From Synechococcus sp. MVIR-18-1 (GTDB lineage Bacteria > Cyanobacteriota > Cyanobacteriia > PCC-6307 > Cyanobiaceae): a DNA stretch of 64,000 nt. Where the stretch lies: assembly GCF_014279835.1 (NCBI RefSeq), contig NZ_CP047942.1:2170001-2234000 (forward strand). Reading direction: 5' to 3'. Position 1 is the stretch's first letter. Each line of letters starts with the position of its first letter. This document shows positions 894 to 57,771 of this stretch, piece after piece. The notes under the pieces were generated by a model, which saw only the letters and a list, made by a program, of their open reading frames with translations, had not been told where the DNA came from and did no database searches. A program made the translations under genes and the position numbers.

Positions 894-3239
894 TTAACGA
901 AGCCGCAAGCTGAGGGCATTCAGCACAACAGACACCGAGCTAAACGCCATAAGCAGTGCTGCCAGGGGAGGTGACAACAAAAGACCAAATCCGGGCAAAA
1001 GCACACCAGCCGCAATCGGCAAGGCAATGAGGTTGTAACCAAAAGCCCAAATCAAATTCTGACGAATCTTGGACATCGTTCGCCTGGCCAAGCAAAGCGC
1101 CTCAGGCACAGCCTCAAGCCGATCTCCGAGCAGCACCAGATCGGCCGTGTCCTGAGCGATCTGAGTTCCTGTGCCGACTGCAATGCCGAGGTCTGCTGCC
1201 GCCAAAGCGGGGGCATCGTTGATTCCGTCACCCACCATCGCTACAGAACCCTGCTCTCGCAAAAGCTCAAGGCGTTCAAGTTTTTGATGCGGCAACAGTT
1301 GCCATGCCAAATCGGCGTCGGCGAAACCAAGCTCACGCCCCACCCGTTCAACGGTCTGGCGACGATCGCCACTCAACATGGCAACCGACTGACCCTGGTC
1401 TCGTAAGCGCTGGATGGCGAGCGATGCATCCGGGCGAAGTCGATCGTCAACAGTCACGAGGCCAAGCGGAGTCTCAGCCAAAGCAACAGCCACTAACGAC
1501 TGCCCACGCTGCACAACCGAATCAAGCGCTTGTTGCTGTTGCTCCGTCCAGAACACACCTTGATCACGCAGCCATTCCGGTGAGCCAACACGCACCAGGC
1601 CATCCACGCCTTGCAACCGACCTTCCATCCCTGCACCAGGAGTGGTGCGGCTGGATTCAACCCCTAAAAGAGGCAACTGAAGCCTTTGTGCCTCCTGCAG
1701 CAACGCATGGGCGAGTGGATGCCGGCTCGTCTGTTCAAGGCTTGCCGCCAGCTGAAGCGCTTGAGGGGGATCCTCGCTGGCCAACACCGAATCAACCAGG
1801 GGCCGCCCGAGCGTGAGCGTGCCTGTTTTATCGAACACCATGCGCTGGACAGAGGCTGCTAACTCGATCACATCTCCACCTCGAAACAACCAGCCCTGCT
1901 TCGCTGCCAAACCTGAGGACACGGTGATCACGGTGGGAGTGGCCAATCCCAAAGCACAAGGGCAAGCCACAACAAGCACCGCAATGGAGAGTTGGAGAGC
2001 GAGACCAAGCGACGTCTCAGCTCCCGCACCAAGAGAGCCATGCAGACCATGCGCATGGCCGTGATCCATCAACGCGACAGGCACATCAAGGACATGAGGC
2101 CAAAGTCGACAACCGACCTGCCACCAAAACAGGAACGTGAGAATGGCAAAACTCACCACCGCATAACAAAACTGGCCTGCCACGCGATCGGCAAGACCCT
2201 GAATCGGTGCCTTCCTTGCTTGGGCCTGCTCCACCAAATCAATGATCCGAGCAAGAGCGGTTTCACGACCAATCCGCTGCACCTCAACGATCAAGGTGGC
2301 CTCAAGATTGAGGCTGCCTGAACTGAGCTCAGCGCCTGGAGAGGCATCCAAAGGCAAGGGTTCCCCAGTGAGGCTGGAAAGATCCACAGCCGAATGCCCT
2401 TCACGCACGATTCCGTCCACCGGGACGCGGTCGCCAGCCAGGAGCTGCACACACTCTCCTGGGCGCAGCGCCGAAACCGATACTTCACGGATCGTGCCAT
2501 CGTCCATCAACAGTCGAGCACCATCTGGCTGGAGAGCCGCTAGGTCCTGCAGTGCTCGGCCCGTGCGACGGCGCGCCCGCTCTTCAAGAAAGCGTCCCAG
2601 CAACACAAAACCCAAGAGCATCACCGGCTCGTTAAAGAAGCAGGGCCAACCCACCTGAGGCCAAACCAAAGCGACCAAGCTGGCCAGGTAGGCACTTCCA
2701 ACACCAAGGCTCACCAAGGTGTCCATCGTTGGCACCCCCATGCGAGCGGATCGCCAACCTGCGATCAGGATGGGTCGGCCCGGTCCCACCAAAGCAACAG
2801 TGGCCAAACCGGCATGAAAAGGAAGCGAACCAAGTGGTGGAACCTGGACAGTTCCGGCTTCAGCCAGGTGACCCACCACGGACAACACGAGCAGGACCAG
2901 CGCGACGATTAGCTGACGCCACTGCTGCCACCAACCCCAGCTGCGATCTGCCTCAACCGATGAACCAAATGCATCAGTCTCTCGAGGATGGGCACTAAAA
3001 CCTCGCGCCGTTAAAGCCTCAACGACGCCAGCAAGATCAGCAACGGCATCTTCTTCAAAGCGAAGCCAAGCACTGCGAGTGACCAGATTCACGCTGGCTT
3101 CGCACACCCCGGGTTGATCCAGAAGCGTGCGCTCGACCGAACGCACGCAACCACCGCACTTCATGCCATCCACGTCTAAAAGCATCGTGGGGGACGACTT
3201 TGTGGCGTTAGCGGAATTTGTCACAACTGCAGAACGCAT
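894..3239 (-). CDS. Copper-transporting P-type ATPase (P1B-1, CtaA/PacS type)
   Basis: ATP-driven copper transport across the plasma or thylakoid membrane. An N-terminal heavy-metal-associated domain carries GMKCGGC (Cys about 28 and 31). The actuator loop has LTGEP, the transmembrane metal site has ACPCALG, the phosphorylation site is DKTGTLT, and the hinge is GDGINDAP. Downstream, YN in RQNLIWAFGYN and MAFSS near the C-terminus complete the P1B-1 copper signature. A short His-rich stretch (DHGHAHGLHG) lies in the loop before the CPC helix. An ATG at 3239 is preceded by an in-frame TTG; a later Met at 3185 sits just before the metal domain. In cyanobacteria such pumps feed plastocyanin and cytochrome oxidase; CtaA versus PacS cannot be decided here. 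Confidence 0.93.
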   Translation of the reverse strand: MRSAVVTNSANATKSSPTMLLDVDGMKCGGCVRSVERTLLDQPGVCEASVNLVTRSAWLRFEEDAVADLAGVVEALTARGFSAHPRETDAFGSSVEADRSWGWWQQWRQLIVALVLLVLSVVGHLAEAGTVQVPPLGSLPFHAGLATVALVGPGRPILIAGWRSARMGVPTMDTLVSLGVGSAYLASLVALVWPQVGWPCFFNEPVMLLGFVLLGRFLEERARRRTGRALQDLAALQPDGARLLMDDGTIREVSVSALRPGECVQLLAGDRVPVDGIVREGHSAVDLSSLTGEPLPLDASPGAELSSGSLNLEATLIVEVQRIGRETALARIIDLVEQAQARKAPIQGLADRVAGQFCYAVVSFAILTFLFWWQVGCRLWPHVLDVPVALMDHGHAHGLHGSLGAGAETSLGLALQLSIAVLVVACPCALGLATPTVITVSSGLAAKQGWLFRGGDVIELAASVQRMVFDKTGTLTLGRPLVDSVLASEDPPQALQLAASLEQTSRHPLAHALLQEAQRLQLPLLGVESSRTTPGAGMEGRLQGVDGLVRVGSPEWLRDQGVFWTEQQQQALDSVVQRGQSLVAVALAETPLGLVTVDDRLRPDASLAIQRLRDQGQSVAMLSGDRRQTVERVGRELGFADADLAWQLLPHQKLERLELLREQGSVAMVGDGINDAPALAAADLGIAVGTGTQIAQDTADLVLLGDRLEAVPEALCLARRTMSKIRQNLIWAFGYNLIALPIAAGVLLPGFGLLLSPPLAALLMAFSSVSVVLNALSLRLR

Positions 3240-3303
3240 CAAGGAACGCTAGGCAGGGCTGCTGATTCCAGTCAGGATGGAGTCACACCTTTTTTGGCTT
3301 CCT

Positions 3304-3824
3304 GTGCCGCGCAGCAACCGAAACGACAATTTTATCGACAAAAGCTTCACGGTCATGGCCGATCTCATCGTGAAGCTACTGCCGATTAACGCCCGTGCCA
3401 AAGAAGCTTATGTGTATTACCGCGACGGGCTCTCAGCCCAGAACGACGGTGATTACGCGGAAGCCTTGGAAAACTACGAGGAAAGCCTGAAGCTGGAGGA
3501 GAACGCGATCGACAGGGGCGAAACCCTTAAAAACATTGCCATCATCTATATGAGCAATGGAGAAGAAGAGCGAGCGCTGGAGACCTACCAAAAGGCCTTG
3601 GAGGAGAACCCCAAGCAACCGTCATGCCTGAAAAACATGGGCCTGATTTATGAAAAACGCGGTCGCACGGCGGAAGAAGATGGTCGTCGTGATGATGCGG
3701 ATGGCTGGTTTGACTTAGCAGCAGATGTTGGACCCAAGCCGTCAGGCTGAATCCAGGTGGCTATCTCGATATCGAAAACTGGCTGAAATCAACCGGCCGC
3801 AGCAACGTGGACGTGTATTTCTGA
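3304..3824 (+). CDS. ycf3: Photosystem I assembly protein Ycf3, with an apparent 1-nt frameshift near the 3' end
   Basis: TPR-repeat chaperone that helps assemble photosystem I subunits at the thylakoid membrane. Read from GTG at 3304, the product begins [20 protein letters not shown], the family N-terminus, followed by TPR units ([21 protein letters not shown] and following). In this frame it stops early at 3748-3750 after [10 protein letters not shown]. Shifting frame at 3729 gives [18 protein letters not shown] followed by a further stretch ending at 3822-3824, which is the conserved Ycf3 C-terminus. Adding one T (GTT GGA to GTT TGG) near 3728 restores about 173 residues, the normal family length. 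An upstream in-frame ATG at 3277 exists but extends past the family start. The restored stop lies 4 bp from the convergent radA stop. Confidence 0.92.
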
Positions 3825-3827
3825 CGG

Positions 3828-5225
3828 TCATGCTTGGTCATCGGAAGGGTTAACACCAAGGGCAAGGACCAGCGCTTCCGTGATCGAACCAGCTTCGTGC
3901 AGCTCCAAGTTCAAGCTGGCCTCCCCCTTTCCGAGTCCGCACCCTTTCGGAACCACCGCTCGTCTGAAGCCAAGACGGACCGCCTCTTGCAAGCGCAACT
4001 CCAACTGACCAACAGGCCTGAGCTGCCCACCAAGGCCAAGTTCACCTAGCAGGACGGTGCCTGCCGGCAAGATGAGATCGCGATAACTCGCAACTACAGC
4101 TGCAGCTACGCCCAAATCAGCCGCAGGCTCCTCCACATCGAGACCACCCGCTACAGCGAGGTAACAGTCGAAACGGGACAGCGGCAGGCCCATGTGCTTT
4201 TCCAGCACCGCCAAGATCTGATGCAAACGATTCACAGCAATCCCTGTGGCCGTCCTTCTGGGGCTCGCATAGCTCGTGGTACTGACCAAAGCCTGCAGAT
4301 CCACAACAAGAGGCCTGGTGCCTTCACAGGCCACAATCGTGGCGACTCCGCTGGCCTCATCTCCACTCAGGAATAACTCGCTCGGGTTATTAACCTCAAC
4401 AAGACCTTGGCCCTGCATTTCAAACACGCCAAGTTCATGGGTAGCGCCAAAACGATTTTTAACGGCACGCAGGAGTCGATGACTGGCAAAACGATCCCCC
4501 TCAAAGGTGAGCACGGCATCTACCAGATGTTCGAGAACCTTCGGTCCTGCCAACATCCCCTCTTTAGTGACGTGGCCGACAAGCAGCAAAGCCGTGTTCT
4601 GTCGCTTGGCTAATCGCTGCAGAGACGCGGCACATTCCCGCACTTGAGCCACTGATCCCGGAGCGCTCGACAGGTTGGCGTCATGCAACGCCTGAATGCT
4701 GTCGATGATCGCCACATCGGGCCGTAGAGCCTCGAGCTCTTCCAACACCAACTCCAGATCTGTTTCAGCAAGCAGTTGGAGCCCCTCGCTCTCTCCACCC
4801 AAACGCAACCAGCGCAACTTCACTTGCTGGGCTGATTCCTCAGCGCTGACATACAAAACGGACAGGCGGTTCGCCATGACTGATGCGCTTTGCAGAAGCA
4901 GCGTGCTTTTGCCGATCCCTGGGTCACCCCCAACGAGCACGAGCGAGCCGGGTACAACGCCACCGCCCAAGACTCGATCCAATTCTGGGTAACCGCTCTC
5001 AAGGCGTTGAATCGGCCGATCACCCAGATCGGCCATGGCGGTGGAACGTCGCGCCACTGGCGCTGCTGCTGACTCAGCAGGAGCGCGTCTGCGCCGGCCG
5101 TCGGGTTTCGGAGCGGTTTGTTCGACCAGAGAATTCCAGCTGCCGCAACTGCTGCAGCGACCAAAAAACTGCCGTGTCTGCGCACCACAGCTCTGGCAAA
5201 CGAAGATTGAAACGGGTCGGGACAC
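3828..5225 (-). CDS. radA: DNA repair protein RadA/Sms
   Basis: RecA-like branch-migration ATPase acting in recombinational repair. The N-terminal zinc finger has CQSCG and CSSCG (Cys 10, 13, 24, 27). The Walker A motif is GGDPGIGKST at about residue 100, the RadA-specific KNRFG motif is present (VKNRFGAT), and the C-terminal third is the Lon-like domain (CYLAVAGGLDVEEPAADL). At 465 residues it has the family length. The start is GTG at 5225. It is divergent from rpaB and convergent with ycf3. No oddities were seen. Confidence 0.95.
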   Translation of the reverse strand: MSRPVSIFVCQSCGAQTRQFFGRCSSCGSWNSLVEQTAPKPDGRRRRAPAESAAAPVARRSTAMADLGDRPIQRLESGYPELDRVLGGGVVPGSLVLVGGDPGIGKSTLLLQSASVMANRLSVLYVSAEESAQQVKLRWLRLGGESEGLQLLAETDLELVLEELEALRPDVAIIDSIQALHDANLSSAPGSVAQVRECAASLQRLAKRQNTALLLVGHVTKEGMLAGPKVLEHLVDAVLTFEGDRFASHRLLRAVKNRFGATHELGVFEMQGQGLVEVNNPSELFLSGDEASGVATIVACEGTRPLVVDLQALVSTTSYASPRRTATGIAVNRLHQILAVLEKHMGLPLSRFDCYLAVAGGLDVEEPAADLGVAAAVVASYRDLILPAGTVLLGELGLGGQLRPVGQLELRLQEAVRLGFRRAVVPKGCGLGKGEASLNLELHEAGSITEALVLALGVNPSDDQA

Positions 5226-15598: not shown

Positions 15599-15684
15599 AC
15601 AACCTTAAAAGGATCACGACCCCGTTCGCTTCCTAAAGTCGTCACCAACCGCAAGCGCGGTGTCCTTACGCAATACAAGCCCCC

Positions 15685-56436: not shown

Positions 56437-57565
56437 TTGCTGGACCTCACAGACTTCAAACGCGATCTTTCCGAGCTCACTGACCGCCTGGGCCATGCCC
56501 AGGACTGTCTTTGACGTCCCTGCACTGAACGCCAGGCAGCAAGATCTCGAGCAACTCGCAGCTCAACCCGAGTTTTGGAACGACCAGCAAAACGCCCAGA
56601 AGCAGATGCGGCGCCTGGACGAAGTCAAGGCACAGCTGCAGCAACTGGTGGATTGGCGTGGTGCGATCGACGATGGGCAAGCCACCCTTGAGCTCTATGA
56701 CTTAGAGCCTGACGAAGACCTCCTCGGTGAAGCTCAGCAGGGACTCGATCAGCTGCGACACGCTTTGGATCGCTGGGAGCTGGAGCGCCTGCTCAGCGGT
56801 GAATATGACAAAGAAGGTGCTGTTCTAAGCATCAACGCCGGTGCCGGGGGCACTGACGCCCAGGACTGGGCCCAGATGCTGCTGCGCATGTACACCCGCT
56901 GGGCCGAAGACCAAGGGATGAGCGTGCGCGTCAATGAGTTGTCGGAAGGTGAGGAAGCAGGCATCAAAAGCACCACGATTGAAATCGAAGGTCGTTACGC
57001 CTACGGCTATTTACGCAACGAAAAGGGCACCCATCGGTTGGTGCGGATCTCGCCCTTTAATGCCAATGACAAGCGGCAAACGAGCTTCGCGGGTGTGGAA
57101 GTGATGCCCAAGCTGGATGAAGATGTAGAGCTCAATATTCCTGAAAAAGATCTCGAGGTCACCACCTCCCGCTCCGGCGGGGCCGGTGGGCAGAACGTCA
57201 ACAAAGTGGAAACGGCCGTTCGCATCCTTCACGTACCCACCGGTCTGGCGGTGCGCTGCACCCAAGAGCGCTCCCAGCTTCAGAACAAAGAGAAGGCCAT
57301 GGCCCTGCTCAAGGCGAAGTTGCTGGTGATTGCCCAGGAGCAGCGTGCAGCGGAAATTGCCGACATTCGCGGCGACATTGTGGAAGCCGCCTGGGGAAAT
57401 CAGATCCGCAATTACGTGTTTCACCCGTACCAAATGGTGAAAGACCTGCGCACCCAAGAAGAGACCACAGATGTGCAAGGCGTGATGGATGGAGATCTCA
57501 ACCCCTTCATCCAGGCGTTATTGCGCCAAGGTGTGGATCGCCCAGGCAGCGACGACGACACATGA
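56437..57565 (+). CDS. prfB: Peptide chain release factor 2 with programmed +1 frameshift
   Basis: RF2 terminates translation at UGA and UAA. The zero frame runs from a TTG at 56437 ([20 protein letters not shown]) for 25 codons to CTT TGA at 56509-56514. A +1 shift on CTT T|GAC continues as [20 protein letters not shown], giving a full RF2 with [20 protein letters not shown], which holds the GGQ peptide-release motif. CTTTGAC is the classical autoregulatory RF2 site: the enzyme suppresses its own frameshift when abundant. The upstream stimulatory sequence is weak (CAGGA). A plain ORF call would start about 56429 in the wrong frame. Confidence 0.93.
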
Positions 57566-57771
57566 CTCAGGCTCCCAACAACAACAGCACCCCTTCCACA
57601 GCACAAAGCGACGACAAGGGAGCGCCACCGCCGAGCTTCGTAAAATTGGCCATGCGCAACATGGTGCGCAAAGGGGGGCAGAGCCTGTTCCATTTCGGCC
57701 TGACCGCTGCAGGCTTCATTGGTTTCATTCTTGTGGTGGCCTGGTTGGGGCGACCAACACTCCCGCAATGA
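57562..57771 (+). CDS. DUF3285 small membrane protein
   Basis: Small cyanobacterial protein of unknown function, 69 residues: a polar, Asn/Ser/Thr-rich N-terminus of about 24 residues, then the conserved [20 protein letters not shown], and one C-terminal transmembrane helix ([17 protein letters not shown]). Its ATG overlaps the prfB stop (ATGA) and its stop overlaps the ybeY start (ATGA), so it is locked in a translationally coupled prfB-DUF3285-ybeY string. Conserved in my recollection next to prfB in cyanobacteria. Confidence 0.78.

Follow-up and report, generated by a model that had tools for sequence, protein, structure and literature searches.

In Synechococcus sp. MVIR-18-1 the gene for Ycf3 is split over two reading frames by a one-base difference near its end, and the question is whether that base is missing from the chromosome, missing from the sequence only, or made good during translation. 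In the window, by which we mean the whole stretch of 64,000 nucleotides that was analyzed, the frame opening at GTG 3304 encodes 142 Ycf3-type residues followed by six foreign residues and a TGA at 3748–3750, and the −1 frame from 3729 holds 31 codons up to a stop at 3822–3824 (Table 1). A whole-genome search with the family model NF002725 returned two abutting pieces, 3304–3729 (model positions 1–142, 247.6 bits) and 3720–3821 (positions 140–173, E 2.4e-12), in window coordinates. Both the non-family ending of the first frame and the conserved C-terminus in the −1 frame, as given in the preliminary description, were thus borne out by translation and by the model, whose match to the first frame ends at position 142. 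The 0-frame product alone scores 248.7 bits against a curated cut-off of 143 bits, and no single open frame crosses all 173 positions, 1–142 lying in the 0 frame and 140–173 in the −1 frame. The tail by itself fits the end of the model, and does so exactly at the abutting place, which makes the two-piece match more than chance. The gene belongs to the Ycf3 family by descent, but the product encoded by the present sequence is truncated. A start at GTG 3304 finds support in the aligned codon of 80 relatives (GTG in 61, TTG in 14 and ATG in 5); an in-frame ATG is also present at 3277.

Table 1. Parts of the ycf3 locus and its flanking genes, in window coordinates
Feature	Coordinates	Strand	Basis or remark
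ycf3, first 142 codons, GTG start, 0 frame	3304–3729	+	NF002725 positions 1–142, 248.7 bits
Missing-base site, GTTGG vs GTTTGG in nearest relatives	3727–3731	+	DNA alignments
Non-family residues GPKPSG and TGA stop, 0 frame past the break	3730–3750	+	Translation; absent from 80/80 relatives
Conserved last 31 ycf3 codons and stop, −1 frame	3729–3824	+	NF002725 140–173, E 2.4e-12
Heavy-metal (copper-type) P-type ATPase	894–3242	Opposite to ycf3	Flanks ycf3
RadA	3828–5225	Opposite to ycf3	Flanks ycf3

Alignment of the window with six near relatives left one single-base gap, GTT-GG, at which three of them read GTTTGG, one GTATGG and two GTGTGG, and alignment with four syntenic relatives, covering 61.5 to 63.6 kb of the window, placed the same one-base deletion at 3729. 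The local DNA equals that of the nearest relative (G023) minus one T, and the earlier proposal that one T is missing near 3728 (GTTGG for GTTTGG) agrees with the gap in these alignments. With no more than three consecutive T, this is not a classical site of homopolymer error. We also looked for locally bad sequence around the break, and no cluster of private changes relative to 102 relatives marks the site; residues D126 and L138 are uncommon, yet present in 7 and 8 of the 102, respectively. Judged from its sequence, ycf3 here is an ordinary single-copy gene of a marine Synechococcus-type cyanobacterium, one T short in the assembly at the border of codons 142 and 143.

The break was not met in any other genome compared. 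From 282 pattern matches in the GTDB species collection 235 loci were confirmed, and the best 80 of these served as the named loci. Every one of the 80 is open as far as the conserved end, encoding 173 residues in 75 cases and 172 in five. Family members ending naturally at GPKPSG, which the preliminary description had named as evidence against a frameshift, are absent from these 80 relatives, all of which continue to the conserved end, and when the translations of both frames were compared with relatives, none of those examined shared the shift. In a second comparison, with 109 relatives, 102 were scored, all of them in frame, and 7 were skipped because they matched on the reverse strand of the locus; the genomes behind these seven (G002, G007, G008, G011, G014, G022 and G024) have a full-length gene in the genome search. 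Among the 31 genomes of the genus that were searched, MVIR-18-1 included, 29 gave a match over the cut-off, 28 of them spanning positions 1–173 without a stop and MVIR-18-1 spanning 1–142 only; the exceptions, G003 with no match and G015 with a weak match only, are 80% and 73% complete. The named-locus and genus-genome sets overlap, WH7803 for example occurring in both (L007, G009). A second, rescuing copy of ycf3 was not found in the genome with NF002725, whose other matches are two weak ones at 2039146–2039370 and 2146114–2146299, and none of the papers returned on ycf3, frameshifts and Synechococcus appears to concern such a break. As a side observation, one locus in the collection (L076), on a contig titled Bifidobacterium breve MAG (CALPNT020000104.1), encodes a picocyanobacterial-type Ycf3, and the name of this record looks wrong.

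The age of the lesion can be approached through the codons behind it. The 31 shifted codons differ from those of L002, L003, L004, L083 and L084 by 4–6 synonymous and no non-synonymous changes, and from those of L005, L007 and L085–L088 by 4 to 13 synonymous changes and at most one non-synonymous change; 20 of the 31 lost columns are invariant among 22 relatives. This pattern points to unbroken purifying selection on the shifted tail. A tail long out of use should show amino-acid changes, and since this one differs from its nearest relatives by synonymous codons only, the lesion is either very young or absent from the living cell.

On balance, we infer that the base is probably missing from the sequence only, through an error of base calling, assembly or finishing. 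In that case the cell would produce Ycf3 at its normal length of 173 residues, which acts as a TPR chaperone in photosystem I assembly. This reading is supported by the private nature of the break (80/80, 102/102 and 28/28 relatives intact), by the undecayed tail with its invariant columns, and by the remaining gene content, as the genome keeps two PsaA/PsaB-type genes and one ycf4, all without internal stops, and no other ycf3. It is further supported by genetics: according to a review, knocking out ycf3 in Synechocystis or Chlamydomonas leaves cells that accumulate no photosystem I and show no photoautotrophic growth (PMC11449065). Excerpts of two other papers describe the Synechocystis protein, which has TPRs, as chaperoning nascent photosystem I (PMC9958174) and place Ycf3 of Chlamydomonas in early photosystem I assembly (PMC6015050). 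The same function would hold for the Ycf3 considered here by membership of the family (PMC11449065), and because its loss is reported to abolish photosystem I, the living cell would be expected to have an intact gene. A null ycf3 allele is hard to square with the retention of intact PsaA/PsaB-type genes and ycf4 and with the knockout phenotype. Against an error count the clean one-contig assembly, in which this is the sole such break in about 200 kb of coding sequence, and the presence of only three T at the site.

To assess the quality of the assembly, we compared 264 kb of the genome (the window and 200 kb around it, about 11% of the whole) with the corresponding DNA of three relatives. The reading phase was tracked in every ORF that aligned over at least 90% of its length, and shifts of at least 60 nt were considered. 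Comparing 213, 210 and 211 ORFs per relative (206, 201 and 199 kb), we found ycf3 to be the only ORF in about 200 kb of coding sequence that runs at least 60 nt out of phase against all three relatives. Out-of-phase stretches of this length against at least one relative occur at 13 places: one, ycf3, against three relatives, one against two (the first 86 nt of a 249-aa ORF) and 11 against one, and all of these 11 touch an ORF end, ten the 5′ end and one the 3′ end (2246484, against G013 only). Gaps against all three relatives were also seen at 2056836 (2 bases, in a 141-aa ORF, 15 nt before its 3′ end), at 2081133–2081146 (summing to three bases), at 2125334–2125351 (a cluster summing to whole codons) and at 2257420–2257427 (a cluster at the ORF's 5′ end); no long out-of-phase stretch results at any of these places. 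A generally error-prone assembly is not supported, as ycf3 alone is out of phase over such a length against all three relatives in the sample. The genome is a single contig of 2,451,974 bases and 99.93% complete; an assembly this clean makes an error less likely but does not dismiss it, since one single error suffices. Numbering based on dnaN is a hint only to the sequencing technology, because WH7803, which we take to be an older Sanger genome, starts like this genome, where dnaN begins at base 174, likewise in 5 of the 6 relatives inspected (G013 differs). A Synechococcus genome set with about this numbering rule was, according to an excerpt of its description, produced largely by short-read sequencing and manual finishing (PMC7522525).

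Some other differences were seen in comparisons with relatives. A 34-base deletion at window position 57560 alters the C-terminal part of a 94-aa ORF of G023 and G020 (57521–57768, − strand), which may be no gene. At window position 15679, near the 5′ end of a 123-aa ORF, there is one extra C (nt 20 of 372) relative to G013 and G020, and one close by relative to G012; the extra C is probably upstream of the true start. Outside the window, in region 2080929 of this genome, the first 469 nt of a 553-aa ORF of G023 are out of phase with this genome, which may come from a fusion or from a shift on the side of G023.

A real and recent deletion is a tenable but less probable explanation, according to which the sequenced clone, part of its population or part of its chromosome copies makes a 148-residue Ycf3 (142 residues plus GPKPSG) that works well enough or is carried beside intact copies. 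Chromosome copies may be mixed, some of them intact, and a partly working truncated Ycf3 in the cell is possible. With no other clean frameshift of this kind in the 264 kb compared, an isolated consensus error is less to be expected, and the lack of decay in the tail is what a very young mutation would show. What the truncation would remove was examined on a structure model of Ycf3 from an intact relative (L002; mean pLDDT 86.4), built with 22 of the 80 relatives, with predicted helices at residues 7–25, 30–47, 51–64, 68–84, 88–101, 106–125, 129–149 and 155–164. On this model, the break after residue 142 would cut helix 129–149 after 14 of its 21 residues and remove the C-terminal helix 155–164, while repeats one and two and the larger part of the third would stay in frame, a point in favor of this explanation. 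Concerning the suggested loss of the third TPR region, the break does fall in the last TPR helix, but the whole repeat is not removed. A search of solved structures with the intact relative matched 58 sequences, which are other and designed TPR proteins, and no chain named Ycf3 is among them. Speaking against a real deletion are the knockouts described above, which were reported to lack photosystem I (PMC11449065), the strong conservation of the lost end, and the fact that no relative examined tolerates the truncation. Sequence alone cannot separate an error from a real, recent mutation. Still less likely, and in our view improbable, is a deletion that is both real and fixed, with a photoautotroph assembling photosystem I by means of a Ycf3 without the last part of its third TPR and without its C-terminal helix, this conserved end being dispensable or compensated.

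The slippery motif of programmed −1 frameshifting is X XXY YYZ. After its last stop, at 3711, the −1 frame stays open up to 3824, such that a shift between about 3714 and 3748 reaches the conserved end, and the tail that would be reached is conserved. Between 3600 and 3750, however, no in-register heptamer is present, confirming the earlier impression that a good slippery site is lacking, and the only run of at least four equal bases in 3650–3760 is AAAAA at 3653, outside the workable shift zone. RNA from 3730 to 3824 (95 nt) folds with a z of 0.04 and is equalled or surpassed by 99 of 200 shuffles (pseudoknots are not covered by this value), the split-frame arrangement is kept in 0/80 named loci, 0/28 other genus genomes over the cut-off and 0/102 scored relatives, and the DNA at the break is that of G023 less one T. 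Lacking a heptamer, an unusual downstream fold and conservation, programmed frameshifting is rejected, and any −1 recoding at or near GTT GGA, programmed or spontaneous, that restores full Ycf3 from the shifted gene is very improbable. The preference for error or mutation over programmed shifting in the preliminary description is upheld by the private shift, the missing heptamer and the unremarkable fold.

The break does not point to a new system or mechanism. If it is an error, as we favor, it matters for annotation only, in that a gene needed by the organism would be labeled as broken. A real break would serve as a natural experiment in truncating an assembly factor, one that reportedly cannot be knocked out without abolishing photosystem I. 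As in programmed −1 frameshifting of the dnaX kind, a −1 frame overlaps the first frame at this locus, but unlike that system ycf3 has neither heptamer nor unusual downstream fold nor conservation of the arrangement in relatives. It differs from the Ycf3 genes of relatives (0/80 with the shift) in being one base short, with its last 31 codons in the −1 frame, and resembles them in its start, in its DNA context and in encoding both model positions 1–142 and 140–173 of the 173 of Ycf3 (NF002725 / PRK02603), in order and abutting.
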